In this document: positions 18,250-42,192 of the stretch, piece by piece
Position numbering within the stretch: position 1 is the first letter of the stretch
Layout: every line of letters begins with the position of its first letter
DNA from: an uncultured Gammaproteobacteria bacterium
GTDB taxonomy: Bacteria; Pseudomonadota; Gammaproteobacteria; Arenicellales; JAANXG01
Direction: 5' to 3'
DNA length: 46,759 nucleotides
NCBI GenBank assembly: GCA_947259175.1
Contig: CAMYKW010000040.1
Location: 1-46,759 of the forward strand
Translations under genes and position numbers: made by a program
Notes under the pieces: generated by a model
Databases searched by the model: none
What the model was told of the DNA's origin: nothing
What the model saw: the letters and a program-made list of their open reading frames with translations, nothing else

Positions 18250-19461
18250 ATGGACGACAAGCACACGCGCGGCACATCAGCGGGGCGCAATGATCCGCAC
18301 CAGGCGGCGCGGCTACGTGACATCGAGCCGTTTTATGTCATGGAGATCCTGGAACGGGCGTTCGCCCTCGAGCGCGCCGGGCGGTCGGTGATACATCTGG
18401 AGGTGGGGGAACCCGACTTCCCGACCCCGGCGCCGGTCGTGGAGGCGGGAATCCAGGCGTTGCGGGAAGGCAAGACGCGCTATGTGCAGGCGCTCGGCAT
18501 TGACGCGCTGCGCGAGGGTATAGCAAATCGTTATCCGCCGGTATGTCGGCCGCCGGCGGAGCGGGTGGCGGTTACCCCCGGATCGTCCGGGGCGTTCCAG
18601 TTAATCTTCGGATCGTTGCTCAACGCCGGAGATGAAGTGCTGTTGACTGATCCCGGGTACCCATGCAACGCCAACTTCGTGCGCCTCTACGAGGGGGTGC
18701 CGAAGCTGATTGCGTGCGACGCCGATGCGGGGTATCAATTCACCGCTGCGGCGATCGAAGCGGCGTGGACTGAACGCACCAAGGCGGTATTGATCGGCAC
18801 CCCGTCGAATCCCACCGGCACCGCGGTGCCGCCGGACGAGATGACGCGCATCGTGGCGGCTGTGGAGCGTCTGGGTGGCGTGTTGATCGTCGATGAGATT
18901 TATCACGGCCTCACCTATGGTTCGGACGTGCGCACCGCGCTGCACGACACCGACCGTGCGTTCATCGTCAACAGCTTCTCCAAGTACTTCGGGATGACCG
19001 GTTGGCGCGTGGGTTGGATGGTGATGCCGCCGGCGTTCATCGACGGCATCACCAAGCTGGCGCAGAACCTGTTTATTTCCACCAGCACGCCGGCGCAGTA
19101 TGCGGCGCTTCGTGCGTTGCAGGACGACGTGATCGCCGAGTTTGAGCGCCGCCGCGAGGTGTTCCGGCAACGACGTGATTTTCTGCTGCCGGCGCTGCGC
19201 GAGCTGGGATTCAAGGTGCCGGTGACGCCGCAAGGCGCGTTTTACGTGTATGCCGACTGCAGCGCGTTTACCGACGACAGTTATGCCTTCGCTATTGACG
19301 TGCTGCAATCGACGGGAGTGGCAATCACGCCGGGCAAGGACTTCGGCCGTCATCGCCAGCGCGAGCATGTAAGGTTTTCCTACGCCAACACTGTGGATAA
19401 TCTGCGCGAGGCGGTAGAGCGGCTTGCGGAGTATTTGCAGGACAAAGTGCCGGCGTCGTAA
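18250..19461 (+). CDS. Class I/II PLP-dependent aminotransferase
   Basis: 403 residues of the aspartate-aminotransferase fold. EVGEPDFPTP (51-60) and TRYVQALGIDALREGIA form the N-terminal arm and small domain. TPSNPTGTAVP (184-194) contains the PLP-contacting Asn, VDEIYHGLTYG (214-224) the Asp and Tyr, and NSFSKYFGMTGWRVGW the Schiff-base K245. Close relatives transaminate aspartate, aromatic or branched amino acids; the substrate cannot be specified. It is monocistronic, isolated between two repeat blocks. Confidence 0.9.
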   Translation: MDDKHTRGTSAGRNDPHQAARLRDIEPFYVMEILERAFALERAGRSVIHLEVGEPDFPTPAPVVEAGIQALREGKTRYVQALGIDALREGIANRYPPVCRPPAERVAVTPGSSGAFQLIFGSLLNAGDEVLLTDPGYPCNANFVRLYEGVPKLIACDADAGYQFTAAAIEAAWTERTKAVLIGTPSNPTGTAVPPDEMTRIVAAVERLGGVLIVDEIYHGLTYGSDVRTALHDTDRAFIVNSFSKYFGMTGWRVGWMVMPPAFIDGITKLAQNLFISTSTPAQYAALRALQDDVIAEFERRREVFRQRRDFLLPALRELGFKVPVTPQGAFYVYADCSAFTDDSYAFAIDVLQSTGVAITPGKDFGRHRQREHVRFSYANTVDNLREAVERLAEYLQDKVPAS

Positions 19462-28589: not shown

Positions 28590-29570
28590 TTGATCACCCT
28601 GGTGACAGGCGCCAGCGGTTTTGTCGGCAGTCATCTCGTCGACGGTTTCTTGCGCGCCGGACATGAGGTGCGTTGTCTGCTGCGTTCGCCGGCGCGTCCC
28701 GGGTGGCTGGCGGATAAACCGGTGGAGCGGGTGGAAGGCGATTGCACCCGTCCGGCAACCCTGGCCGGAGCGGTGCGCGGCGTGGATTGCGTCGTTCACG
28801 CCGCGGGAGTCACCTGGAGCGCGAGGCGATCCAAATATTTTCAGGTCAATGCCGAAGGCACGCACAATCTACTCACGGCGTGCGCCGGCCATGCCCCGGC
28901 GCTGACCCGGTTCGTGCATATCTCCAGCCAGGCGGCGGCCGGCCCGGCGCGCGGCCGGGAAGCGCTTAGCGAGCTGGACATACCGCGGCCAATCACCCCC
29001 TACGGCGAGAGCAAGCTGCTCGCCGAGCGCCATGTCACGGCATTCAGCCGGTGTTTTCCCTGCATAATCCTACGCCCCAGCGCGGTTTATGGCCCCCGCG
29101 ACCGGAATTTTTTGTCCTATGTGCGCATGGTTAAGCGCGGTTTCCTGCTAGAATTGGGTTCCGGACGGCGCACGGTGAGTCTGTGCCACGTTAAAGATCT
29201 GGTAACCTGTACGTTGGCCGCGGCCAATAGCCACGTGCCCTCGGGGTCTGTATATTTCGTCGCCGACGCCGATCCGTACCCCTGGGGGGACGTGGAGCGG
29301 GGAATTTGCACTGCATTGGGTGTCGACCCGCGGCGCATCACGGTGCCGGCATGGAGCCTGCGGGTGATGGGCGCGATCGGGCAATTATATGGACTTGTTA
29401 CAGATCGACCGGTTAGGATTAACACCGCACGGGCGGCGGAACTGCTGGAGAAACGCTGGATCTGTGACGTTACTAAAATGACTAAAGAACTCGGGTGCAC
29501 ATCCAGTACGGATCTAACCCGGGGATTACAACAGCTGGTTCGCTGGTACCAAGAACAATACTGGTTATGA
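28590..29570 (+). CDS. NAD-dependent epimerase/dehydratase, candidate ceramide reductase (CerR-like)
   Basis: 326 residues of the extended SDR family: nucleotide loop LVTGASGFVGSHL (4-16), catalytic Tyr-Lys in TPYGESKLLAERH, and LRPSAVYGPRD. The only usable start is TTG 28590, since an in-frame stop lies six codons upstream. Its TGA overlaps the next ATG as ATGA, tightly coupling it to a serine-palmitoyltransferase-like gene. In Caulobacter, CerR, an SDR of this type, acts with Spt in ceramide synthesis. The same role here is inferred from the pairing; sugar epimerase is the alternative. Confidence 0.72.
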   Translation: MITLVTGASGFVGSHLVDGFLRAGHEVRCLLRSPARPGWLADKPVERVEGDCTRPATLAGAVRGVDCVVHAAGVTWSARRSKYFQVNAEGTHNLLTACAGHAPALTRFVHISSQAAAGPARGREALSELDIPRPITPYGESKLLAERHVTAFSRCFPCIILRPSAVYGPRDRNFLSYVRMVKRGFLLELGSGRRTVSLCHVKDLVTCTLAAANSHVPSGSVYFVADADPYPWGDVERGICTALGVDPRRITVPAWSLRVMGAIGQLYGLVTDRPVRINTARAAELLEKRWICDVTKMTKELGCTSSTDLTRGLQQLVRWYQEQYWL

Positions 29571-30796
29571 CAAACCGAATCCTCGCCAAACAACAGGCTC
29601 CCGGACGCGCGCGAGCAGGGATCTTCGACAAGTGCCATCAGTTTACTCGTGCCCAGGAGCTCATCGAGGCGGGTATTTATCCCTACTTCCACACGGTGGA
29701 ATCGGCCCAGGAGCCCGAGGTGGTGTGCGACGGGCGGCCGATGATAATGATGAGTTCCAACAATTATCTCGGTCTGACGAGCCACCCCAAGGTGAAGGAG
29801 GCTGCGATCGACGCGGTGCGGCGTTACGGCACCGGTTGCGCGGGCTCCCGATTTCTAAACGGCACGCTGGCGATACACGAAGAACTCGAAACCCGCCTGG
29901 CCCATTTCCTGCGCAAAGAAGCTGCGATCGTATTCCCCACGGGTTTTCAAGCGAACCTCGGGGCGATTTCCGCGCTGGTGGGTAAACATGACTTGATCGT
30001 GATCGACAAGATGAATCACGCCAGCATCTTTGACGGCTGCCGGCTTTCATTCGGGCAGATTCGCAAGTTCAAGCACAACGACATGGAAGACCTGGAACGC
30101 ATACTGCGCGACAACGCGGGCAAGGCGGCGCTGGTGGTGGTCGACGGCGTGTTCAGCATGGAGGGCGATATCGCCAGACTGCCGGGGATCGTCGAATTGT
30201 GTCAGCAGTACAACGCCGGTTTGATGGTGGACGATGCGCACGGTATCGGCGTACTCGGAGACAACGGCCGCGGCACCGCGGAACATTTTGCCCTCGAGGC
30301 GGATGTGGATCTGATCATGGGCACCTACAGCAAGTCCCTGGCGACCATCGGCGGGTGTCTGGCCGCGGACGCCGACGTGATCGATTATCTCAAGCACCAT
30401 GCGCGCTCGTTGATCTTCTCCGCCAGCCTGCCCCCGGCGCCGGTCGCCGCGGCCCTGGCCTCGCTGAAGATTATCGAGGAGGAGCCGGAGCGCCGCGAGC
30501 GGCTGTGGCGCAATGCGTCGTACCTGCGCGAGGGTTTCCTGAGCCTCGGCTTCGACATTGGGGTGAGCGAAACCCCGATCGTGCCGGTGGTGGTCGGCGA
30601 CGAAGAAAAGGTGCTGATCACCTGGCGGCGCCTGTTCGACCAGGGCGTGTTCGCGAGCCCGGTGCTGTACCCCGCAGTGCCGCCGGGTATGGCCTTGATT
30701 CGCACCAGCTGCATGGCAACCCACACCATCGAACAACTCGACTTGGTGCTGGATGTGTTCGGGCGAGTCGGACGTGAGATGGGGCTCATCGACTAA
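29567..30796 (+). CDS. spt: Serine palmitoyltransferase-like alpha-oxoamine synthase
   Basis: 409 residues. PLP-enzyme marks are SSNNYLGLTSHPKV (63-76), GTGCAGSRFLNGTLAIHEEL (88-107), DKMNHASIFDG with stacking H151, VDDAHGIGVLG (D222/D223, H225) and MGTYSKSLATIGG with Schiff-base K256. The GTYSKSLATIGG loop is closer to bacterial serine palmitoyltransferases than to the shorter GT-x-GKA loops of BioF or Kbl. The enzyme would join serine and a fatty acyl thioester to give 3-ketosphinganine. Starting by ATGA overlap with the reductase supports sphingoid-base synthesis. Kbl/BioF-like activity remains possible. Confidence 0.8.
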   Translation: MTNRILAKQQAPGRARAGIFDKCHQFTRAQELIEAGIYPYFHTVESAQEPEVVCDGRPMIMMSSNNYLGLTSHPKVKEAAIDAVRRYGTGCAGSRFLNGTLAIHEELETRLAHFLRKEAAIVFPTGFQANLGAISALVGKHDLIVIDKMNHASIFDGCRLSFGQIRKFKHNDMEDLERILRDNAGKAALVVVDGVFSMEGDIARLPGIVELCQQYNAGLMVDDAHGIGVLGDNGRGTAEHFALEADVDLIMGTYSKSLATIGGCLAADADVIDYLKHHARSLIFSASLPPAPVAAALASLKIIEEEPERRERLWRNASYLREGFLSLGFDIGVSETPIVPVVVGDEEKVLITWRRLFDQGVFASPVLYPAVPPGMALIRTSCMATHTIEQLDLVLDVFGRVGREMGLID

Positions 30797-30814
30797 CTGT
30801 CGTATCCCGCTCTC

Positions 30815-31903
30815 ATGCGCCGTTGGTTGGTGTTGCTGGCTGTATCGGTACTCGGCTGCGGATCGGCGCTCGCTGCAGACACCGTAATCGAGGATCACCG
30901 GCCGCTGCTGCTCGGCGCGGAATCCTACACCGAGGGCTGGGATCAATACTTCTATTTTGAAGACGGCGCGTTTCTCGCCGTGCAATTCCTGATCAGCAAT
31001 TACGGACCCACGGATCATCGCGCGCTGGTGATCGGTTCACTGCTGCCCGCCGACGGCGGTGAGCCGATGGTAATCAAGAACGGCCGCGGCCCAAAGGACT
31101 GGAGTTTTGATGAGCGCCGGTTGGATCTCAAGCTGGCCAATCATCGTTTCCAGGGATCGCACCCGGATTATCAATTGTATCTGCGCAATAGCCGCGGCGA
31201 GGTGGAGCTTACCGTGGAAGCACGCGCCGAACCCTGGCGGCTGGGCCGCATTCCCGACCGCGAAGTCGAGAAGTTCCAATACGCCTCCTATACGCTGCCC
31301 CTCGCCCAGGCCCGGGGCCGTTACCGGCGCGGTTCGGAGAGCGCGGGTACCGCGGGCCCCTGGCAGACGTTGCGCAACGGGCGGGGCTTCGCGATCCGTT
31401 ACCTGAACAGCAGCTCATTATCCAGGGTCGCGCGCACGTGGATACGCGTGGCGTCCATCGACGGCAAAGACGCGCCGTCGCCGATCTTCTATCTGGTGCA
31501 ACGCCCGGGCGAGGAACAATCCAGCTTTCTTGCCATCGCCGAGGATGGCAGGATCCGCCGGCAGTGGTCGGAATTCCCGGTGCGCTTGATCAGGCCGGAA
31601 ATAGACGCCGCGGACGAAACCGAAGACGTGTTCACGGACGATACGCGGCCCCCGCAGGCGATCGAGTTCCGCGTTGCGGGAACCGACGGCGCGGTGATGG
31701 GTAAAATCACCATGACGCGACTGCTGCAGCGTTTCGATTTCGTACGGGAACTCAAACGCATCGAACGGTTTATCGTTCAATTTCTCAACACGCCGCGGCA
31801 TTACCGCTATCTGGCGGAGTATGAACTGACTTATCCGGGGGAAAAAGGCCCGCGGAAGTTGACCGGAACCGCATTGGCCGAGATCATGGCGCTCAAGCGC
31901 TGA
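30815..31903 (+). CDS. Exported protein of unknown family, in the putative sphingolipid operon
   Basis: 362 residues with a signal sequence MRRWLVLLAVSVLGCGSALA. This could be cut after ALA (type I) or lipidated at C15 (VLGC); the choice is open. The mature part is beta-rich, with aromatic-charged strands (EGWDQYFYFEDGAFLAVQFL, WSFDERRLDLKL, YQLYLRNSRGEVELTVEARA). The pattern recalls lipocalin-like AttH/Svf1 proteins, but I cannot confirm it. It begins 18 nt after the synthase stop, so it is co-transcribed. A periplasmic carrier or partner of the following exporter is a fair guess. Confidence 0.65.
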   Translation: MRRWLVLLAVSVLGCGSALAADTVIEDHRPLLLGAESYTEGWDQYFYFEDGAFLAVQFLISNYGPTDHRALVIGSLLPADGGEPMVIKNGRGPKDWSFDERRLDLKLANHRFQGSHPDYQLYLRNSRGEVELTVEARAEPWRLGRIPDREVEKFQYASYTLPLAQARGRYRRGSESAGTAGPWQTLRNGRGFAIRYLNSSSLSRVARTWIRVASIDGKDAPSPIFYLVQRPGEEQSSFLAIAEDGRIRRQWSEFPVRLIRPEIDAADETEDVFTDDTRPPQAIEFRVAGTDGAVMGKITMTRLLQRFDFVRELKRIERFIVQFLNTPRHYRYLAEYELTYPGEKGPRKLTGTALAEIMALKR

Positions 31904-32036
31904 GCCGGTTGCGTCACCGCCACAATGACGCCGGTGGGTAAAGTGGGGTCCGGTCTGTAATTTCGCGGGGTCCGCCCCCATATTACCCGTATGCGCGTCC
32001 TTGGACCCAAGGATTCCTGAGCATGGCAGACCACAA

Positions 32037-34502
32037 ATGACCGCCGACCAAACCAGCATGACCCCCAAACCCATACGCTGGGTGGTGGCGTTCCTCGCGC
32101 GCTTTTATTGGCTGGTGTTGATCGCCGCGTTCGCGTCCGCTTATTACTGCTTTTTTATCGCCAAGGAGCTCAAGCTGGATGCAAATGTCATTTCCCTGAT
32201 GCCCGAAGGCGTGCGCAGCGTCGAGAATCTGCGCCGGGTGATCAAGAAGACCGGCGGTTACAGCAATGCCATGATCCTGGTGGAATCGCCGGATCAGGAG
32301 GCGAGCCTGCGGTTCCTGTCGGATCTGAGGGTTGAAATCCTCAAGTCCGATTGGGTCGGCAGCGCCGAATACAGCGAAGACACCGCGATCTTTGAAAGAA
32401 ACAAGCTGTTGTTCGTCGAGACCAACGATTTGCAGGAAATCGATCGCAGGCTGGCGGCGCGGCTCGACTACGAAAAGAAACACCTGAAATTCAAAGTCCA
32501 GGACACCCCGGTGGAAATCGACATTCGCGGCACCAGAAAGCGACCGCCGTCGCTGAACTTTGACGATATCGAGGAGAAATACCAGGGCAAGAAAGACCGA
32601 ACGGAAAAACGAAACCTGTTCCAAAACGATGCCGGAGATCTCATCATCCTGGTGGTGATGCCCAAGGGGGGCACCACCAACGTCTCCTACTCGAAGCGCA
32701 TCATATCGGAGCTTCAGGACAAGATCGCCCTGGTCGATCCCGGCAAATACCACCCCGAGATGCGGGTGCAGCTCGGCGGCAGGGTGACCAATCTGGTCGC
32801 CAAATTCGACGCGATCATGAGCGACATCAAGGGCAGCGCGGTGTGGTCATTGTCGGCGATTTTTCTGGTGGTGGTGTTGTTCTACCGGCGCTTGTCCGCC
32901 TTGTTCTACATCGGTGTGCCGCTGGTAGTCGGCTTCTTGTGGACGTTTGCGATCACCCAGGTGGTGCTCGGCGGCCTGAATCTGATCACCATCTTTCTGG
33001 TGCTGATTCTGTTTGGCCTGGGGATCGACTTCGGCATCCACAACCTGTCGCGTTTCAATGAGGTGCGGCAGCACGGCGGCACCCTGGAGCAGGCCTTGAG
33101 CACCGTGTACCGGCGCACCGGGCAAGCCTCTTTGTTGGCCGCCGTAACCACCATGGCTGGATTCTTCTCGTTGATGATCACTGATTTCCGTGCGTTCTAT
33201 GAGTTCGGATTCATTGCCGGCACCGGCGTCGCGTTTACGTTGTTGGCGATGTACCTGGTGTTTCCCGCATTGATGGTCCTCGCCGAGCGGATCAAGTTGT
33301 ATCGTGCACCGCCGGAGAGGGCCGAGAAGGTGGTAGAAGGTGGGGTGTTTCCGTTCACCAACCCGATCTTGGTGATCGGCGCCATGCTGTGCGTATTCAG
33401 CCTCGTGGCTTTGAACCAGCTCGCGTTCGAAAACGATTTCGGCAAGCTCAAGACCCAGGTACCGAGCCTGGATGAGGTGAAACGCAAGATCCGGGATGTG
33501 TTCCCGCTGCGATCGGACAAGGCGGTGGTATTCGTTGAAAACCTGGAGGACGTCAAAGCGCTGGTGGACGCCGTTGAGTCGATCAAGGATCTGGGTGAGG
33601 AGGCGGGGGACCCGACCATTGAAAAAGTAAAATCCATCTACAACCTGGTGCCGGAATCGGAGGAGCAGAAGGAGCGCATCGAGATCATCGATCGCATCCA
33701 CACACAGTTGGACGAGGCGACGACGCTGCTGGAGGATTTCAAAGAAGACGATGAACGGCGCGCCGAGATGCAAAAGCTGATGACGTATCTCGGTGTGTCG
33801 GAGATGAAACCCGGTGATTTGCCGCTGCCCCTGCAGCGCATCTACACCGGAGTGCCCGACTCCGGCGGCTATCTGGTGTACATCTACAACCGCAAGGGCA
33901 CCTCGAAACTGGAAGAAGCGCAGGCGTTTGTCGACGACATTCGGGAGATCACCATCAACGACAAAACCTATTATCCCGCCACCGAAGCGATGATCTTCGT
34001 GGACATGCTGAATCTGATGAAAAAGGACGCCACCCTCGCGGTCACCGCGGTACTGGCGACCGTTGCGCTAATCCTGTTGATCGCGCTGCGCAGCGTCACG
34101 CAGACCATCGTGGTGTTGATACCGGTGCTGGTCGGCACCCTTTGGATGCTGGGGGTGATGGCGGCGTTCGATGTGCGGCTGAACGTATTCAATATGGTGG
34201 TGCTGCCGACGGTGCTCGGTATCGGCCTGGACAACGGTATCCACATCTACCACCGGTATCGGGAGCGCGGGGCCGGCGGATTGCGCCATGTCATCAAGAC
34301 CACCGGCGCGGCGGCGTTCCTGACTACTTTGACCACCATGCTCGGCTTCGCCGGGACCTTGACCGCATCCAATCTCGGCCTGCAGTCGCTCGGCCTGGTG
34401 GCGTGTATCGGCCTCGGCGCGTGCATGCTCAGCTCACTGACGGTGTTTCCCGCCATCTTGCAATGGCGCGCCAATCACATCGCGCAGCGGCAGGCGGTCT
34501 AG
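32037..34502 (+). CDS. MMPL/RND superfamily lipid exporter (HpnN-like)
   Basis: About 821 residues from ATG 32037 (TTG 32001 and ATG 32058 are alternatives). One helix near the N-terminus (VVAFLARFYWLVLIAAFASA) is followed by a large periplasmic domain (about 40-260) and a five-helix bundle containing FGLGIDFGIHNLSRFNEVRQ. A second periplasmic domain and a second bundle, with TVLGIGLDNGIHIYHRYRER, follow. The duplicated GIDFGIH/GLDNGIH segments carry the acidic residues typical of proton-coupled MMPL pumps such as HpnN. Its position after the synthase pair suggests that it moves the lipid product outward. Its TAG stop is part of the end of a mobile-looking element. Confidence 0.87.
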   Translation: MTADQTSMTPKPIRWVVAFLARFYWLVLIAAFASAYYCFFIAKELKLDANVISLMPEGVRSVENLRRVIKKTGGYSNAMILVESPDQEASLRFLSDLRVEILKSDWVGSAEYSEDTAIFERNKLLFVETNDLQEIDRRLAARLDYEKKHLKFKVQDTPVEIDIRGTRKRPPSLNFDDIEEKYQGKKDRTEKRNLFQNDAGDLIILVVMPKGGTTNVSYSKRIISELQDKIALVDPGKYHPEMRVQLGGRVTNLVAKFDAIMSDIKGSAVWSLSAIFLVVVLFYRRLSALFYIGVPLVVGFLWTFAITQVVLGGLNLITIFLVLILFGLGIDFGIHNLSRFNEVRQHGGTLEQALSTVYRRTGQASLLAAVTTMAGFFSLMITDFRAFYEFGFIAGTGVAFTLLAMYLVFPALMVLAERIKLYRAPPERAEKVVEGGVFPFTNPILVIGAMLCVFSLVALNQLAFENDFGKLKTQVPSLDEVKRKIRDVFPLRSDKAVVFVENLEDVKALVDAVESIKDLGEEAGDPTIEKVKSIYNLVPESEEQKERIEIIDRIHTQLDEATTLLEDFKEDDERRAEMQKLMTYLGVSEMKPGDLPLPLQRIYTGVPDSGGYLVYIYNRKGTSKLEEAQAFVDDIREITINDKTYYPATEAMIFVDMLNLMKKDATLAVTAVLATVALILLIALRSVTQTIVVLIPVLVGTLWMLGVMAAFDVRLNVFNMVVLPTVLGIGLDNGIHIYHRYRERGAGGLRHVIKTTGAAAFLTTLTTMLGFAGTLTASNLGLQSLGLVACIGLGACMLSSLTVFPAILQWRANHIAQRQAV

Positions 34503-34999
34503 TCCGAATTTCTCACCAGGCGCCCAGCTACTATTCTCAGCAAGCAGTAGTAATGGTCTCAAGTCCAACGCTGTCCCACATAATCTCGAACCCATGCGTC
34601 GACATGAATGGGTGGATATATTCCGCGACCCGCCGTGAATCCATCCATGGAGGCTCGGATGCCGCATCCGTGCGGCATACGGTCGCTGAATATATCCACC
34701 CATTCATGCCCCTTACGGTGCAGGGCTCAACCAACGCCCCATAAAACAATGCATTTCGACGTCTCTATCCGTGTTTCATGGGACAGCAGTGGTCTTAAGT
34801 CGTATTTTCATTGAACCAAAACTACGGATGCCTCAACTACCTGCCAAGAATAGTAGCCGGATGGCCGGTTGCGCCGTTGCCTGTCCCAGTTTAGGATGCT
34901 CGGCCGTTTCCACCAACGCCACTGCCGGGCGCCGGACGCCGGGCGTCACCCCGGGCATCGATCAGATTCCTTGCTGCGACGACATGTTCACTGCTCCCT
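34503..34999. mobile_element. Foldback element inside the lipid cluster (34503-34860) plus leader
   Basis: The left end TCCGAATTTCTCACCAGG continues to CCAGCTACTATTC (34524-34536), matched in inverse at 34848-34860 with one mismatch. Nested inside is a perfect 21-bp inverted repeat whose arms lie at 34603-34623 and 34688-34708, enclosing ATGCCGCA-TCCG-TGCGGCAT. Outer arms near 34555-34578 and 34782-34805 also pair imperfectly. It shares 25 bases with the element at 23202-23472. The part 34861-34999 shows no ribosome site or clear promoter. No protein gene seen. Confidence 0.7.
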
Positions 35000-36319
35000 T
35001 TGCCCCCCCAGCGGGACCCGCGGGCTGGTTTGACTGAGCGCGCCGCCACAACGCCGGAGCGCCGATCCGACTACGACGCGGTGATCACCGTTGCCGCCCG
35101 TGCGCCTGCACGCCCCGAGCAGTGGCCGGAATTCCAGCCGATCCTGGGGCGCTCGCCGTTCCAGCGCCACCTCCACCACCTCGGCGCGCTGGGTATCAAG
35201 CGGGTCGCGGTGATGCCGCTGACTGCCGGCGCGGGCGGCGCCACAGCGGATCTCGTCCGGCTGATCGCCGCGCAGCGGGAATCCCTCGGTGGGTCGCCAC
35301 CGACGGTCGCGGTGATCGGCGCGCCGCCGCAGACCGATTGGGTGCAGCCGCTCATGGTGATGCCCGCGGCCGCGATTTACGATGCGCGCCTGTATCAGGC
35401 GGTGCATGGGTCGCCAACCGCGGTGAGCTTGATCGACGGCGGCGATGATACCGGTCTGGCGCGCGTATCCGCGGACGCGCTGGCCGACCTGGCCGCCGGC
35501 GAAGCGCCGCCGTCGGGTGGGGGGCGCACGCTCGACGTGGACGCCTTGCCGCGTTACCTGCCGGCGCTGCGCCGCGATCTGCGGCCCGGGTGGAGCCCCG
35601 CGGTGACGGCAGCGGACCGCGAGCGGGCCGCGCGGCTGCTCATCGACGCTGCGCAGAAAGGGGTGCTCGATTTTCCCGCCCGCTATTTACACCCCTGGCC
35701 CGAGAATCTGTTGGCCAGGGCGGCGGCCGGCACCCGCATCACCCCCAACCAGATCACCGTGTATTCGGCGTTGCTGGCGTTTTTCGGCACTTATTTATTT
35801 GCCGCGCAATATTTTCTGCCTGGTTTGTTGATCGCGGTGGCCGCCGGGATCCTCGACGGGGTGGACGGCAAGCTGGCGCGCATCAAGCTGTTGAGCAGTC
35901 CTTTCGGCGACCGCCTCGACCATAGCCTGGACGTGAGTTTCGAGTTCAGCTGGTATCTCGCCCTCGGTTGGGGCCTGAGCCGGGCCACCGGTGATAGCGA
36001 CGCCGTGTGGGTGGGTATGGCGATCCTGCTGCTGATGGTCGTCGCCCGTGCCCTGAGCGGCGTGTATCGCGTCATCACCGGACACCAGATCCATGACCAC
36101 ACTGCATACGACCGCGCGGTGCGGTTGGTGGCCGGGCGGCGCAACATCTACGTGCTGGTGTGGCTGGCCGGCGCCGTGATGGGAAATCTTCATGCGGCCT
36201 TTTACGTGACCTTGATTTGGGCGCTGGTCACGGTGGCCGCTTACGCAGGACGCATCCTGTCGGCGCTGATCTTGAAAAAACAACGACAGCGCCGCGCGTC
36301 CGCGTTGACACCGGAGTGA
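35000..36319 (+). CDS. CDP-alcohol phosphatidyltransferase with degenerate N-terminal nucleotidyltransferase-like domain
   Basis: 439 residues from TTG 35000 (TTG 35030 is equally possible; no ribosome site for either). The first 190 residues loosely follow a nucleotidyltransferase (YDAVITVAARAP, FQPILGRSPFQRHLHHLGAL) but lack the glycine-rich nucleotide loop. The C-terminal half is a membrane CDP-alcohol phosphotransferase with the full motif D286-x2-DG-x2-AR, then G303-x3-D307-x3-D311. It would transfer a phospho-alcohol from a CDP carrier to a lipid hydroxyl. It is a paralogue of 39873-41174. The flippase starts 3 nt after it. Confidence 0.85.
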   Translation: MPPQRDPRAGLTERAATTPERRSDYDAVITVAARAPARPEQWPEFQPILGRSPFQRHLHHLGALGIKRVAVMPLTAGAGGATADLVRLIAAQRESLGGSPPTVAVIGAPPQTDWVQPLMVMPAAAIYDARLYQAVHGSPTAVSLIDGGDDTGLARVSADALADLAAGEAPPSGGGRTLDVDALPRYLPALRRDLRPGWSPAVTAADRERAARLLIDAAQKGVLDFPARYLHPWPENLLARAAAGTRITPNQITVYSALLAFFGTYLFAAQYFLPGLLIAVAAGILDGVDGKLARIKLLSSPFGDRLDHSLDVSFEFSWYLALGWGLSRATGDSDAVWVGMAILLLMVVARALSGVYRVITGHQIHDHTAYDRAVRLVAGRRNIYVLVWLAGAVMGNLHAAFYVTLIWALVTVAAYAGRILSALILKKQRQRRASALTPE

Positions 36320-36322
36320 TCG

Positions 36323-37870
36323 ATGGCGGCTGATCCCCATACGTCCCAACCGACCGCGCCGGTGAACGGCGCCGAGCTCGCCTCCAAGGCGAGCATCATG
36401 GTGGCGAGCAAGATCGCCGGCGCGTTCAGCAAGATCGTGGCGATCGTCATCCTGGTGCGGTTGCTCGATAAGGAGGATTTCGGGCTGTTGAGCTTCGCCC
36501 TGGTGACTTACCTCACCGTCACCAAGTTGTCGGAACTGGGGCTGTCGGACAGCATCTTTTATTTTTTCGGCAAGTATTCCAACGCCCGCCGGGGCTATGC
36601 GCTGAAGGTCGCGCGCACGCTGTTTTTGCTGGCCATCGCCGGCGGGGGATTGTTGTTGTTCATCGGCGCGGTGACCGGCGCCAACGGCTACTCGACCCTC
36701 GACTTGTTTGTGCCGTTGACGATCCTGGCGCTCATCGAATTACCGACCCTGCCGATCCAGAACGCGTTGATCGCGATTGATCGCACCAAGCATGCGGCGC
36801 TGGCGAATATTTTGTTCAGTCTGGTTTTTCTGCTGGTGGTCACGACGCCGGCGTTCGCCGGTCAATCCATTCAGCTCATCACCTATTGCCTGATCGGCTA
36901 TGGCGTGTTCCGGCTGGTGGTCAGCGCGGTGCTGTTTCAACGCCACTTTGCGCCGGACAGCGGGGAGTTGCCGCCGCGCCTGATGCGTGAAGTGCTCGCC
37001 TACTCGGTGCCGTTGAGCATCGCGTCGATCATGTGGAAGCTCAATGAGTTCGTCGACAAGTACGTGGTGATGTTTTTTCTCCCGGTGGCGGTATTTGCCG
37101 AATATACGGTGGGCTCCTGGGAGATTCCGATGGTGCCCACCATCGCGTTTACCGTGGCGTCGGTGATGATGCCGCAGCTGGTCTCCCTGCACATGCAGCG
37201 CGAAACCGAGTCGCTGCTGGCGCTGTGGAACGAGTCGATCAAGAAGGTGTCGTTGATCGTGTTGCCGCTGATGGTGCTGCTGGTGACCATCGCGCAAGAC
37301 CTCATCGTGGTGTTGTTCTCGGCAGACTACGTGAATGCGGCATGGGTGTTCATGGTGTACACCCTGGTTTTGTTTCACCGTGTGGGCGCCTATGCGGCGG
37401 TGTTGAAGGCGGTCAATCAGACCGGGGTGGTGACGCGCTGGTCGATCTACACGGTGTTGCTCAATTTGTGTCTGAGCGTGCCTCTGGTGCTGTGGTTGGG
37501 GATGATCGGCGCCGCGGTCGCCACCCTGGTGGCGGTGGGCGTCACCTGGGTCTATGTGTTGCGTCGCATCGGGGATGTCCTGGAGGTGCCGCTGCAGCGC
37601 GTGTTTCCGTTCGCCTATTACACCCGCGTGCTCGTTGTCGCGTTCGCCGCCGCCGTCCCCGTGGTGGGCCTCGCGATGTATCTGGAGTCCTCCCACGGCT
37701 TCGGATTGCTATGGAAAACCGTGGTTTATCTTGCGTCGTTTAGCGGGCTTTGTGCGGTCACCGGCATCGTGCAACGCGCCGATGTGTTGTTCGTGGCCGG
37801 GCTCTTCGGCCTGCGCCCGCGCCAGGCGGAGGCGGCGGTGACGGTTGGCAACGCACCGATGCGGCGCTAA
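36323..37870 (+). CDS. Wzx-type oligosaccharide/lipid flippase (MOP superfamily)
   Basis: 515 residues with about twelve to fourteen hydrophobic helices. The N-terminal SKASIMVASKIAGAFSKIVA is followed by VILVRLLDKEDFGLLSFALV, the usual start of Wzx/polysaccharide exporters. GLSDSIFYFFGKYSNARRGY and LAYSVPLSIASIMWKLNEFV are also typical. Such proteins flip lipid-linked substrates across the inner membrane. The 3-nt spacing from the CDP-alcohol phosphatidyltransferase gene implies that they work on the same lipid. The substrate is not encoded in recognisable motifs. Confidence 0.88.
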   Translation: MAADPHTSQPTAPVNGAELASKASIMVASKIAGAFSKIVAIVILVRLLDKEDFGLLSFALVTYLTVTKLSELGLSDSIFYFFGKYSNARRGYALKVARTLFLLAIAGGGLLLFIGAVTGANGYSTLDLFVPLTILALIELPTLPIQNALIAIDRTKHAALANILFSLVFLLVVTTPAFAGQSIQLITYCLIGYGVFRLVVSAVLFQRHFAPDSGELPPRLMREVLAYSVPLSIASIMWKLNEFVDKYVVMFFLPVAVFAEYTVGSWEIPMVPTIAFTVASVMMPQLVSLHMQRETESLLALWNESIKKVSLIVLPLMVLLVTIAQDLIVVLFSADYVNAAWVFMVYTLVLFHRVGAYAAVLKAVNQTGVVTRWSIYTVLLNLCLSVPLVLWLGMIGAAVATLVAVGVTWVYVLRRIGDVLEVPLQRVFPFAYYTRVLVVAFAAAVPVVGLAMYLESSHGFGLLWKTVVYLASFSGLCAVTGIVQRADVLFVAGLFGLRPRQAEAAVTVGNAPMRR

Positions 37871-37910
37871 ACTGCGGCCGCTCATACCACCTACTGTTTC
37901 GCCATCGTTC

Positions 37911-38915
37911 ATGACGAGCAATACCGCCGCCGCCCGGTGGGCGCACTTCAAGTATCAGCTCAGCTACAAGGTGAGCAAGGTGGTGATGCCCAACTCGCCG
38001 TCGGCGTCGTCGATTCCCTTCGTGGAATACCTGAAATGGTTTCGCTACACGCGTTTTACGCCGGAATATCCTTATTCCATCGACATTCAAACCCGCAGCG
38101 GCTGCAACGCGCGCTGTACCTTCTGCGGCGTGGGCCGCGAGCAGAACCGGATCACCGGCCGCATGAGCGATGAACTGTACGAGCAGATCATCGACGAGGC
38201 GCTGACGTTTCCCAACCTGGTACAGATCAATCCGTATCTGCTCAACGATCCGCTGGTGGACAAGACGATCGAGCAGCGCATCGAATACATTGTGCGCAAG
38301 CGCGGCAAGCGACGCCGGCCGGCGGTGCGCATCATCACCAACGCCGCGCTGATGACCGAGGAGCGCGCCTACCGGCTGCTGCAGTCCGGTCTCGATGAGA
38401 TCAATATCAGCTTCAACTCGATCGTTCCCGAGGTCTATGAAAAGGCGATGCCGCCGTTGAAATACGACAAGGTGATGGCAAACATCCTCGAACTGGTGCG
38501 GTTGAAACAACAGTTGGGTGTCAGCCGGCCGCGGATCAATGTCTGGACGGTGCTTACCAGGGACGTGGAGTCCAACCTGAGCAACGAAAAATCATATTGG
38601 AAGAAGGTCGGGGTGAGCTTCAAGGCGCGTAAACTCGACAACCGCGCCAGCGTCGATATCGAAGCCGCCGGGCTCGGCAACCGTCCCATGGACTTGGTGC
38701 AGATCTGCCCGATTCCGTTCTGGCGCGCCTGGATCATGTGGAACGGCGATATGATCATGTGCTGCGTGGACCAGGAGCGATCGAACATCCTCGGCAATTG
38801 CCGCGACCGGCCGATCAGACAGATTTGGAATGATCCTGAATATCAGGATTTGCGCCGCCGCTGGCGCACCAAGGAGTTGGATGGATTGTTGTGCAACGAT
38901 TGCAAGGGCTCGTAA
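37911..38915 (+). CDS. Radical SAM protein with C-terminal cysteine cluster (SPASM-like)
   Basis: 334 residues from ATG 37911 (the longer frame starts inside the flippase gene). The radical SAM 4Fe-4S motif is C65-x3-C69-x2-C72 in RSGCNARCTFCGVG. The partial barrel has QINPYLLNDPLVD and GLDEINISFNSI. Near the C-terminus, cysteines occur in QICPIPFWRAW, MCCVDQE and LLCNDCKGS, a SPASM/twitch-like auxiliary cluster site. Such enzymes do radical chemistry on peptides, lipids or sugars. It lies 40 nt after the flippase in the same direction. Confidence 0.88.
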   Translation: MTSNTAAARWAHFKYQLSYKVSKVVMPNSPSASSIPFVEYLKWFRYTRFTPEYPYSIDIQTRSGCNARCTFCGVGREQNRITGRMSDELYEQIIDEALTFPNLVQINPYLLNDPLVDKTIEQRIEYIVRKRGKRRRPAVRIITNAALMTEERAYRLLQSGLDEINISFNSIVPEVYEKAMPPLKYDKVMANILELVRLKQQLGVSRPRINVWTVLTRDVESNLSNEKSYWKKVGVSFKARKLDNRASVDIEAAGLGNRPMDLVQICPIPFWRAWIMWNGDMIMCCVDQERSNILGNCRDRPIRQIWNDPEYQDLRRRWRTKELDGLLCNDCKGS

Positions 38916-39063
38916 CAGACCGCCGGGCGCGCGCAGGCGAATACTGCCTTAATGGTTGCTTAATGTATCATCGGCGACGATTGATCTTCGCCGGGTGAAA
39001 CGTTACTCTGCGTTGCCGGTGTGACCGGATAAACCGAATAATCCCCCCAGGCTTGATCCAAAA

Positions 39064-39819
39064 ATGGATGAATTGGTACCCGACTGGCAAAAACGACCGC
39101 TGATGCGGGCCGGTCATCATGTCATAAAAAAACTGGAACACTCGATCGTGAAGGCGGATCCGAATGCGGACCAGCCGTTTTACGAATGCGATGATTATCC
39201 CTGGATCGCGCGGTTGGAAAGCGACTGGGAAACCGTCCTGGGCGAACTGCGTCAAGTGATGGCGCATCACGATCGCCTGCCCAATTTTCAAGACATTTCT
39301 CAGGATCAGATCAGCATTACCCGGGATCATCGATGGAAGACGTTCTTCCTGTACGGCTATGGCTATAAGGTGGAACACAACTGCCGGATTTGTCCGCGCA
39401 CAACGGAGTTGGTGGAATCGGTGCCCGGCATGCTGACCGCGTTTTTTTCGATACTTGCCCCGGGAAAACACATCCCCCCGCACCGCGGTCCCTACAAGGG
39501 CATGCTTCGTTATCACCTCGGCCTGATTGTCCCGCAACCCGCCGAGCAGTGCCGCATCCGGGTTGGTGATGAGATCCGTTGTTGGCAGCCGGGAAAGAGT
39601 TTGTTGTTCGATGACACCTTCGAACACGAGGTGTGGAACGAAACCGCGGGGACCCGGGTCGTGTTGTTTGTCGACGTCCTGCGCTCGCTGCCGTTTCCGG
39701 CGTCGGTAATGAACAAACTGGTGATCAACCTGATACGCTGGTCGCCTTTCGTGCAGAATGCACGCAAGAACTTGAGCGACTATAATCTGCAAGCAGAACC
39801 CTCCGTGCAAAGGCACTAG
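39064..39819 (+). CDS. LpxO-like aspartyl/asparaginyl beta-hydroxylase family oxygenase
   Basis: 251 residues. The core begins MLTAFFSILAPGKHIPPHRG (H140) then MLRYHLGLIVP (H151), and ends SLLFDDTFEHEVWNETAGTR (H188, R198) with VVLFVDVLR. This is the signature of the Asp/Asn beta-hydroxylase group that includes LpxO, which 2-hydroxylates lipid A acyl chains using oxygen and 2-oxoglutarate. Inside a lipid cluster, hydroxylation of an acyl or sphingoid chain is a reasonable inference. No signal peptide; cytoplasmic or membrane-associated. The ribosome site is unclear. Confidence 0.83.
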   Translation: MDELVPDWQKRPLMRAGHHVIKKLEHSIVKADPNADQPFYECDDYPWIARLESDWETVLGELRQVMAHHDRLPNFQDISQDQISITRDHRWKTFFLYGYGYKVEHNCRICPRTTELVESVPGMLTAFFSILAPGKHIPPHRGPYKGMLRYHLGLIVPQPAEQCRIRVGDEIRCWQPGKSLLFDDTFEHEVWNETAGTRVVLFVDVLRSLPFPASVMNKLVINLIRWSPFVQNARKNLSDYNLQAEPSVQRH

Positions 39820-39872
39820 CTGGATAACAACAAGAATAATTCGTATACATTTACACGAGCGATAATTCCTTA

Positions 39873-41174
39873 ATGAAAGCGGTCATACTCGCCACGACCC
39901 AACAGGGTCTTTCGTCATCCGAACCCCTCGCGTTCACCGAGCTGTGCGGGGTAAGCCTGCTGGAGCGGCACCTGCGCACGCTCAAGGCCTGTGGATTGAA
40001 TAGCGTCGACGTGGTGGCCGACCACGAAGGTGTATTCGCGATCGAGCAGATTACGGGTCTGACCCGGCGCGGCATGTCGATCCGTTTGCGCACCCTCGAC
40101 GAGTTGCACGGCCGCCAGGTGGTGGCCGACGCTGAATCCGCGCTGATCGTTTGTGGCGACTATATCGTCGAAAAAGCGCTCATCGATGCGGTGCTCCAAG
40201 CCGAGGGTGATTGCGTGTTGGTGGATTCGCATCCTCCGGTCGACGGCACCGATGAGCCGCAACCGGGACACGGTCCGGTGTACGCCGGCGTGGCAGTGAT
40301 CAGTGGTGAAAAAATTGCCGAGCTCCCCACCCGCGACCGCTCGCTGACTGCAACACTGGAAACCTTGCGCGAGGTGAGACAGATCGACGTCAACGCGTTG
40401 CCGAGCTTTGATCCGGCGCTGCGTCGCGACCGGCGGCGCACATGGATGCGGTTGACCGGCGCGGATGACGTGCCGGTCGCCGAGGCGCGCTTGATCGCCG
40501 GGGTGCAGAAAGGATCCCTGGATTGGCCCGCCCAGGCGTTGCATGCGCCGATTGAAAACTGGGCCATCGCCCGGCTGTGCCGCAGGGCGATTACACCGAA
40601 TCAGTTGACGCTGATCACCAACATCGCCGCCTGGGGGGTGACCGCGCTGATTCTTGCCGGGCATTTCGTGAGCGCGTTGGCGCTGGCCGCCGTCGTGGGG
40701 ATCATGGACGGCGTCGACGGAAAACTCGCGCGGTTGAAGTTGATGACATCAAAGATCGGGAAGCTCGAGCACCTGTTCGATATGATTTTCGAATATTCCT
40801 GGTGGTTTGCCCTGGGCTGGGCGTTGTCCCACGGCGACACCGGCGCCGCGATATTCCTGGCCGGGCTGGCGCTGATAGCGTGCAACTTCGCGGACACGGT
40901 AACGGCCGGAATATTCTGGTTTTACAAGGGCCGGCAGCACGGGCGACGGCTGGACAGCTACACGCCGTTCGACCTGATGGTGCGCAAGGTATCCGGCCGG
41001 CGCAACATCTATGTGTGGATCATCCTGCTCACCGCGCTGCTGAGCAGCGTCGAGCTGGGGCTGTGGACGGCGGTGGCGTGGGGCGTGGTGACCGTGGTGG
41101 TGCGGGGCGGCCGGACACTCATGCATCTGCGCGACCGCGGCACACCGGCGGAATTCGAGTTTGTAGTACGCTAG
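39873..41174 (+). CDS. Nucleotidyltransferase-CDP-alcohol phosphatidyltransferase fusion, paralogue 2
   Basis: 433 residues. The N-terminal domain (MKAVILATTQQG, PLAFTELCGVSLLERHLRTL, ALIVCGDYIVEKALID) resembles sugar-phosphate nucleotidyltransferases without the full glycine-rich loop. The membrane domain has D279-x2-DG-x2-AR, but the third part reads G296-KL-E299-HLF-D303. The first Asp of the G-x3-D-x3-D pair is therefore Glu, and one residue is missing. The last 60 residues (MVRKVSGRRNIYV) match the first paralogue. Such fusions make and use a CDP-polyol, as in inositol-phosphate enzymes. It lies 53 nt after the hydroxylase gene. Confidence 0.83.
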   Translation: MKAVILATTQQGLSSSEPLAFTELCGVSLLERHLRTLKACGLNSVDVVADHEGVFAIEQITGLTRRGMSIRLRTLDELHGRQVVADAESALIVCGDYIVEKALIDAVLQAEGDCVLVDSHPPVDGTDEPQPGHGPVYAGVAVISGEKIAELPTRDRSLTATLETLREVRQIDVNALPSFDPALRRDRRRTWMRLTGADDVPVAEARLIAGVQKGSLDWPAQALHAPIENWAIARLCRRAITPNQLTLITNIAAWGVTALILAGHFVSALALAAVVGIMDGVDGKLARLKLMTSKIGKLEHLFDMIFEYSWWFALGWALSHGDTGAAIFLAGLALIACNFADTVTAGIFWFYKGRQHGRRLDSYTPFDLMVRKVSGRRNIYVWIILLTALLSSVELGLWTAVAWGVVTVVVRGGRTLMHLRDRGTPAEFEFVVR

Positions 41175-41178
41175 CGGG

Positions 41179-42192
41179 CTAGCCGGGGTCCGGCAGCTGT
41201 TGCGGCCGGCGCCATTCATCAAAGGCGCTCATCTGATGGACGCAAGTCAAGGTGCACGTCGCGCTGCAGCCCTTGCGGGTGTGGAATTCCCGGCGAACGT
41301 CCTCCCGCGCGTAATCCACGATCGCCTTGTTCGGATAACCCCGTCTTTGTGAACACCAGTGCACCTTGCCGTCTTCGCAGATGTACAGATAGCGCGCACC
41401 GGCGCGGCATTTCCAGTTGGTGGGCTCGCCGAAAATCAGATTCTTCTGAAACAAGTGGTAATTCAATTTGTGGGTGAGCGAACCGGACTGTGCGCCGATC
41501 TGTCGATACACCGCGAACTGTTTGGGGGTAAGTGGTTTCAGGGTGCCGTTTTCGTCGTGCAGCACGCCCACGGAATGATAAAAACCGTAGTGTCTGGCGC
41601 GCTGTGCAACGATCAATGCCTCTTCGGTGCGCTCATCGCTGATGCCGAGCACTGAGTTGATGTTGACCTTGAAACGCGCATAGCGGGCCAGCAGCGCCAA
41701 TTTGCTGTCGACGGAATTGAGGCTCTTCATCGACACTTCATCGGCTTCCAGGTTGTCGATGCTGATCTGCATCTCCTGCAGGCCGCAATCGTTCAGCATC
41801 TCGATGCGCGAGCGGTTGAGGCGGAACCCGTTGGTGATCATGGTGGCGATCATGCCGTGATCCCGGATGGCGCGAATCACGTGTTCGAGTTGCGGGTGCA
41901 TCAGCGGTTCACCGCCGGTGCAGGTGACCGCCGCAGTGGATAAACGGGCCAGCGCGGCGACCCGCTCGCGCAGCCGATCCAGCGGCACCGGCGGCGAGTG
42001 ATCGTCGTATTCGTTGCAGTATCCGCAACTCAGGTTGCAGCGCCGGGTGACCACCAGTTGCGCGAGCAGCGGGTGGTATCGCGACGACACCGCCTTCCAC
42101 AGGAATTTGGACGCCGCCCAGCGGTACCCGCCGTTACGCTGAATGGCGTGCGGTTGCGGCGGCAGTTTGTCGGCGGTTTGTTCGCGTTGCAT
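41179..42192 (-). CDS. Radical SAM/SPASM-like protein, convergent
   Basis: 337 residues. The radical SAM motif is C52-x3-C56-x2-C59 in RRCNLSCGYCNEYD, followed by TCTGGEPLMHP, TMITNGFRLN and QISIDNLEADEVSMKSL. C-terminal cysteines (WKCRAGARYLYICEDGKVHW, CSQ, GCSATCTLTC) suggest auxiliary iron-sulfur clusters. It faces the second CDP-alcohol phosphatidyltransferase tail to tail with a 4-nt gap; a CTAG-CGGG-CTAG palindrome supplies both stop codons. The reaction is unknown. Confidence 0.87.
   Translation of the reverse strand: MQREQTADKLPPQPHAIQRNGGYRWAASKFLWKAVSSRYHPLLAQLVVTRRCNLSCGYCNEYDDHSPPVPLDRLRERVAALARLSTAAVTCTGGEPLMHPQLEHVIRAIRDHGMIATMITNGFRLNRSRIEMLNDCGLQEMQISIDNLEADEVSMKSLNSVDSKLALLARYARFKVNINSVLGISDERTEEALIVAQRARHYGFYHSVGVLHDENGTLKPLTPKQFAVYRQIGAQSGSLTHKLNYHLFQKNLIFGEPTNWKCRAGARYLYICEDGKVHWCSQRRGYPNKAIVDYAREDVRREFHTRKGCSATCTLTCVHQMSAFDEWRRPQQLPDPG

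Follow-up and report, generated by a model that had tools for sequence, protein, structure and literature searches.

Can the synthesis, the head group and the export of a bacterial sphingolipid be assigned to one set of neighbouring genes? The question is raised by positions 28590-42192 of a contig from an uncultured Gammaproteobacteria bacterium of the Arenicellales (CAMYKW010000040.1; 46,759 nucleotides), which was analysed whole (G000:C40) and is here called the window; its own draft genome, G000, comprises 4.18 Mb and is 97.7% complete. An earlier note on this DNA had claimed ten genes in the interval, and protein-family scans confirmed each of them at its position (Table 1). The cluster departs from the bacterial sphingolipid systems known so far in its combination of genes, which includes a candidate exporter, although its chemistry has precedents. 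The sphingolipid reading is well supported. On sequence grounds, a phosphoinositol head and export by the MMPL protein are the likeliest, and we give about an even chance to the full proposal, that the cluster makes phosphoinositol ceramide, which a MOP protein would flip and MMPL with an AttH-like periplasmic protein would export.

The serine palmitoyltransferase (SPT) has as its best NCBIfam model the Bacteroidota SPT model NF047600 (549.9 bits, under the cut-off of 640), followed by TIGR01825 (454 bits) and BioF (422.7 bits). Against solved structures, it scores 441 bits with the Sphingobacterium SPT, 315 with a BioF/Kbl-like enzyme and 298 with the Sphingomonas SPT, and lower with Kbl (289 bits), the cysteate acyltransferase 28eh (269 bits) and BioF (242 bits). 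In a tree of 59 rows, rooted for drawing only and holding neither CqsA nor cysteate acyltransferase, the SPT side is split from the named Kbl, BioF and HemA with support of 100/99. The SPT group, including SPTs of Roseomonas and of a Pseudomonas plasmid that are linked to an acyl carrier protein (ACP), has support of 99/92, and within it the window protein joins the other cluster SPTs and a Parabacteroides row with support of only 94/78; that row, annotated merely as an aminotransferase-fold enzyme, was taken as an SPT. The BioF rows form no single group in it (long branch). A Kbl, BioF or HemA identity is ruled out by the structure scores and by this tree without CqsA, so that the synthase lies outside the Kbl and BioF clades, as the earlier note had supposed. 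Its assignment as an SPT, nearest to the Bacteroidota type, is well supported by sequence comparison. The SDR gene shares 4 nt with the SPT gene; its product is ~29% identical to the SDRs adjoining SPT in Caulobacter-type clusters, and a segment scan found no hydrophobic signal segment in it.

Table 1. Genes of the cluster in the window and the evidence for their assignment
Product	Position	Strand	Evidence
SDR (extended type), putative 3-ketosphinganine / oxidised ceramide reductase	28590..29570	+	PF01370 138.3 bits
Serine palmitoyltransferase (SPT)	29567..30796	+	NF047600 549.9 bits; tree; solved-structure scores
Secreted two-domain lipocalin-like (AttH/CrtC-like) protein, putative periplasmic lipid carrier	30815..31903	+	fold model
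MMPL/RND protein, putative sphingolipid exporter	32001..34502	+	PF03176 125.6 bits; TIGR03480 291 bits
CDP-alcohol phosphotransferase 1 (CDP1), N-terminal nucleotidyltransferase-like domain	35000..36319	+	PF01066 42.6 bits
MOP/Wzx-type flippase	36323..37870	+	PF01943 52.7 bits
First radical SAM/SPASM protein	37845..38915	+	PF04055 and PF13186
OlsC-like acyl hydroxylase (Asp/Arg-type)	39064..39819	+	PF05118 190.8 bits
CDP-alcohol phosphotransferase 2 (CDP2), N-terminal nucleotidyltransferase-fold domain	39873..41174	+	PF01066 29.7 bits
Second radical SAM protein, convergent, link to cluster uncertain	41179..42192	-	PF04055 64.1 bits

From the SDR to the second radical SAM gene, the intergenic spacings are -4, 18, 97, 497, 3, -26, 148, 53 and 4 nt. 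This spacing suggests that SDR, SPT, secreted protein and MMPL form one unit and the genes from CDP1 to CDP2 another, and the 497-nt gap 3' of MMPL may separate two transcripts.

A search with an MMPL alignment yielded 196 loci, of which the best 80 were named, with ~78 genomes behind them. SPT is present in 13 of these best 80 of 196. All 13 keep the order SDR-SPT-secreted-MMPL, with the SDR immediately 5' of SPT (the secreted gene is fragmentary in L063); five of these loci had not been part of the query alignment, and the other eight had. Ten of the 13 have a CDP-alcohol transferase of the same cluster, and 11 have the second radical SAM gene, which in L067 lies ~9 kb away from MMPL. Since just 5, 5 and 6 of the 13 contain the flippase, the hydroxylase and the first radical SAM gene, respectively, the cluster is a conserved core with accessory genes and no fixed ten-gene system. 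The co-occurrence of all ten genes, put forward for checking in the earlier note, thus holds for the four-gene core and fails for these three. A close SPT (at least 64% identical) was found in 15/15 genomes with the closest MMPLs, among them 6/6 of those outside the query alignment (L063, L064, L067, L068, L070, L075). The records with the SPT cluster are labelled uncultured Gammaproteobacteria, Arenicellales, Arenicellaceae and Acidiferrobacteraceae. CDP1 has matches in 13/369 genomes of the class at 1e-15 and in 11/109 of the order at 1e-12, with two matches in each of the six genus genomes (6/6). Besides the own genome, 12 of the class matched CDP1, and the loci of 10 of these were examined; in 3/10 the CDP-alcohol transferase is accompanied nearby by an SDR and an SPT-like gene (SPT identity 71% in L023, 41-42% in L024 and L027).

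Ceramide formation further requires an N-acyltransferase in the proposed pathway, and the earlier note had asked for a bacterial ceramide synthase (bCerS) elsewhere in the genome. The queries were two aligned GNAT proteins encoded close to spt in Caulobacter-type loci (L209, L210), whose bCerS identity comes from cluster context and not from a curated model: no NCBIfam model matches the two proteins, and no solved structures related to bCerS by sequence were found. A homologue is indeed present in the own genome on a separate contig, C63, as a single strong match (323.5 bits, 1.7e-96). It is named bCerS because the queries sit beside LptF/G-like genes and SPT, because the C63 protein is 34% identical to the N-acetyltransferase of an annotated ceramide cluster on the Pseudomonas plasmid pBYT5-2, and because SPT has a member of the family as its neighbour in G871-G874, all four alphaproteobacterial, and in Rhodohalobacter G893. 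Matches occur in 5/13 genomes of the family, the own one included, and in 8/15 SPT-cluster genomes. The adjacent ACP sought in the earlier note is not borne out, a motif scan giving no plausible ACP open reading frame in the window; acyl-ACP synthetase and LptF/G-like genes were likewise not found among the window proteins scanned against family libraries. The plasmid pBYT5-2 (L266, NZ_CP097491.1), which is conjugative, carries an apparent Caulobacter-type ceramide cluster together with LptF/G genes.

The lipid head is likely phosphoinositol, judging from genes on another contig of the own genome. There, an inositol-phosphate synthase gene (TIGR03450 444.5 bits, cut-off 638) overlaps a CTP:inositol-phosphate cytidylyltransferase-like gene. 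Of the NCBIfam models, the IPCT half of IPCT-DIPPS fits the product of the latter best (119.2 bits, cut-off 580), and the solved structures nearest to this product are the inositol-1-phosphate cytidylyltransferases 4mnd, 2xme and 4jd0. The two genes are adjacent in 10/10 family genomes with the synthase and in 4/4 other SPT-cluster genomes examined; in L276 the pair is followed by a second nucleotidyltransferase and a CDP-alcohol transferase. SPT, inositol-phosphate synthase and bCerS were searched in 43 MMPL genomes (19 with the closest MMPLs, 24 from the remainder), which span several phyla. The synthase is found in 39/43 of these and in 13/15 SPT-cluster genomes, compared to 28/369 in the class (Fisher p 7e-32 and 3e-12, uncorrected for kinship). 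Eleven further loci, 10 alphaproteobacterial and 1 gammaproteobacterial, join the synthase, a CDP-alcohol transferase, a flippase, an MMPL and an IPCT-like gene (Pfam scan on one representative per cluster), and bCerS is present in 10/10 of their genomes examined. The own genome also holds a second, divergent inositol-phosphate synthase-like gene at G000:C15:19350-19664 (L169; 118.9 bits).

The phospho-head group step of the earlier note would use the CDP-alcohol transferases of the cluster; the other two putative head genes, synthase and cytidylyltransferase, lie elsewhere in the genome. CDP1 has the full D..DG..AR...G...D...D motif, and a pattern scan of its N-terminal domain did not find the usual nucleotidyltransferase motif. 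The model of CDP2 resembles the Archaeoglobus IPCT-DIPPS 4mnd (Z 26.1, 372 residues, root-mean-square deviation (rmsd) 4.7) and AF2299 (4o6m, Z 25.7). Structure comparison of this model places both folds of the fusion in the one CDP2 chain; the first domain was recognised from the model, plain nucleotidyltransferase scans giving 17.9 bits, below the cut-off. CDP2 was not filed as an IPCT-DIPPS member, its nucleotidyltransferase motif not being intact. The pattern GxG[ST]R...K is found in 0/23 C1 rows from SPT-cluster loci and is present in 15 fusions of the Latescibacterota/Gemmatimonadota type; with the motif missing from these SPT-cluster rows, the CDP-linked donor should be made elsewhere.

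In the proposed pathway, SPT would condense serine with a fatty acyl thioester, the adjoining SDR would reduce the 3-keto group, and the bCerS homologue would form ceramide as an N-acyltransferase encoded on another contig. Inositol-phosphate synthase and the CTP:inositol-phosphate cytidylyltransferase would provide CDP-inositol, from which CDP1 and CDP2 would transfer phosphoinositol onto ceramide; alternatively, one of the two would do so and the other would add a second phospho-polyol. The OlsC-like enzyme would hydroxylate an acyl chain, the MOP protein would flip the lipid, and MMPL and the AttH-like protein would move it towards the outer membrane. The two radical SAM proteins were given no step in this scheme.

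Several observations weigh against this pathway. The inositol genes are unlinked to the cluster in the own genome, lying on a different contig. A bCerS homologue is absent from 7/15 SPT-cluster genomes, some of them >95% complete and all four genomes of genus g276 among them. CDP2 has Glu for the third Asp of its motif, CDP1 and CDP2 reach just 58-61 of 580 bits with the IPCT-DIPPS NCBIfam model, and no C1-type CDP-alcohol transferase was found within L063, L064 and L067. In 10/43 genomes (from Latescibacterota and Gemmatimonadota, with one Deltaproteobacterium and one Calditrichaeota record), MMPL and inositol-phosphate synthase coexist without a bCerS match, and hence MMPL might export a lipid other than a sphingolipid. 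Finally, the evidence comes from sequences of metagenome-assembled genomes alone, in which family membership, conservation and co-occurrence are read directly and from which we infer all substrates, the step order and the export role.

The strongest competitor, less probable than phosphoinositol ceramide yet to be taken seriously, is that the head attached to ceramide by the CDP-alcohol transferases is a different one (phosphoglycerate, glycerol or another polyol), or that they make a diacylglycerol lipid, two lipids then sharing one exporter. The unlinked inositol genes and the ten MMPL genomes with loci of the inositol-phosphate synthase type but no bCerS are in keeping with it. It also has a parallel in Caulobacter CpgD, an IPCT-like protein that, in the available part of the source, makes CDP-glycerate for a sphingolipid (PMC12275187). 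Phosphoinositol is favoured over these heads by the specific co-occurrence and physical linkage of MMPL loci with inositol-phosphate synthase and by IPCT as the best match of the cytidylyltransferase.

It is improbable that the cluster as a whole consists of genes of separate function that stay together simply through gene order shared within a genus. The flanking genes mpl, rnd, lptA-like and mltA are likewise conserved in the genus, but in L066 the core is retained at lower identity along with the two transferases and the two radical SAM genes, and L068 and L069 (family f112 of the class) retain SDR-SPT-secreted-CDP-MMPL amid different flanking genes. Synteny fits best for the flippase, hydroxylase and radical SAM genes. 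As to the hydroxylase, the LpxO-like naming in the earlier note gives way to OlsC, whose model NF052565 scores 251.6 bits compared to 123 bits for LpxO; neither score attains its cut-off (450, curated, and 500 bits), and the enzyme may work like OlsC.

The secreted protein has no Pfam match and a single N-terminal hydrophobic segment. Its model (pLDDT 78.9) aligns with 2ich at Z 23.1 (rmsd 3.7 over 290 residues), the first unrelated structure being far lower (Z 9.1), and on this model its fold is AttH/CrtC-like, of the two-domain lipocalin-like kind. It was not taken as a lipoprotein, the Cys of the signal region not being conserved. In Latescibacterota and Gemmatimonadota loci (representative L081), the position of the AttH-like gene is occupied by an MlaC gene, which adjoins a TolC-like protein and a nucleotidyltransferase-CDP-alcohol fusion. 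This positional replacement suggests, by analogy, that the AttH-like protein could be a periplasmic lipid carrier for MMPL. L081 (5275-14883) consecutively encodes an LPG_synthase_TM-like protein, a TolC-like protein, the nucleotidyltransferase-CDP-alcohol transferase fusion, MlaC, MMPL and a GMC oxidoreductase; L086, L091, L095 and L103 are similar (Pfam on L081 only). Their gene content suggests an exporter that would carry a lipid across the whole envelope and have a dedicated enzyme for the head group.

MMPL itself has 11 hydrophobic segments. That it transports sphingolipids only was ruled out by the bCerS-less genomes among the 43. Its top NCBIfam match is the hopanoid transporter HpnN (TIGR03480, 291 bits) and that of the SDR is HpnA (123.6 bits), as would suit a cluster for the transport of hopanoids or other terpenoids; both scores are well under the cut-offs (751.85 and 367.65) and the constant neighbour is SPT, which makes such a cluster very improbable. 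Sulfonolipid (capnine-type) synthesis, in which the synthase would take cysteate in place of serine, is the least probable of all: its synthase belongs to the same enzyme superfamily and has an SDR partner, but a sulfonate head requires no CDP-alcohol transferase, and the window enzyme scores 269 bits with the cysteate acyltransferase 28eh compared to 441 with SPT.

Phosphoinositol ceramide synthesis and export, as proposed here, can be set beside several known systems. CDP2 shares the two-domain architecture and fold of the archaeal IPCT-DIPPS fusion (4mnd) and of AF2299 (4o6m); in contrast to these, its first domain is without the usual motif and the cytidylyltransferase is encoded separately. 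Jorge et al. (2015) reportedly described CDP-inositol-dependent synthesis of inositol phospholipids with a glycerol-based acceptor and not ceramide. MMPL is of the same MMPL/RND family as HpnN, but here it neighbours SPT and CDP-alcohol genes. The Caulobacter-type ceramide/CPG2 cluster, as far as the available portions of two papers describe it (PMC11324152, PMC12275187), shares with the present system SPT, an SDR, a ceramide synthase of the GNAT type, head-group enzymes of the nucleotidyltransferase and CDP-alcohol kinds, and transport genes of its own; it is also present in Azotobacter vinelandii and Pseudomonas luteola. It has ACP, acyl-ACP synthetase, ceramide kinase and LptC2/F2/G2-like genes, none of which was seen in the window, whereas the window has a Bacteroidota-type SPT and MMPL, an AttH-like protein and a MOP flippase. 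The putative CDP-inositol route to phosphoinositol dihydroceramide in Bacteroides vulgatus and Prevotella likewise involves inositol-phosphate synthase, an NTP transferase and a CDP-alcohol transferase; according to the excerpt at hand, transfer from PI-DAG was put down tentatively to a HAD protein, and an exporter was not named (PMC9246714). In the cluster described here, the transferases are linked to SPT, MMPL and the secreted protein.

The chemistry is not new, because CDP-inositol is already known or predicted as a lipid head donor elsewhere, as the same excerpt indicates (PMC9246714). Its coupling to this cluster, and this exporter, were not found in the open-licence literature; nor was any paper found there joining serine palmitoyltransferase, MMPL and sphingolipid, or any on an SPT gene cluster for bacterial sphingolipid in Gammaproteobacteria. 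One locus unites candidate genes for making the lipid, adding its head group, flipping it and exporting it, all of them open to deletion and assay, and the link between one MMPL family and inositol-phosphate synthase extends over several phyla. The cluster would make the question of bacterial sphingolipid export directly testable: in the text available, the 2024 Caulobacter authors stated that neither a flippase nor a lipid transporter for sphingolipids had been identified (PMC11087976), and another group proposed LptC2/F2/G2 and CC_1166 as transport candidates without testing (PMC11324152). Tentatively, and as a doubtful extension, we suggest a general Pseudomonadota route in which IPCT-DIPPS-like transferases might use CDP-inositol directly for phosphoinositol ceramide, the MMPL family and a periplasmic carrier (AttH-like here, MlaC with a TolC-like channel in other phyla) being the missing envelope transport for sphingolipids and inositol lipids. 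If true, this route could account for the phosphoinositol ceramide-like lipid of Novosphingobium acidiphilum, for which the excerpt gives no known cluster (PMC9246714).

Further SPT-like genes were encountered. A further aminotransferase class I/II gene in the window (18250-19461) was no SPT candidate by the searches made. At 1e-85, SPT matches occur in 12/13 family genomes and in 48/398 genomes of a phylum sample, the best outside the own genome being 45% identical and some rows grouping with Kbl. The own genome has a second SPT, 72% identical to that of the window (L201 7253-13602, G000:C49), whose surroundings, like those in L240, include AsmA-like, alpha/beta hydrolase and polysaccharide deacetylase genes. 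In another draft genome, a 3.4 kb contig (G394:C72, L246) carries an SPT with 100% identity to that of the window, in addition to the genome's own copy at 86%; this contig is probably due to cross-binning. In L064, L066 and L069, a fatty acid desaturase-family gene is paired with another CDP-alcohol transferase near the SPT cluster.

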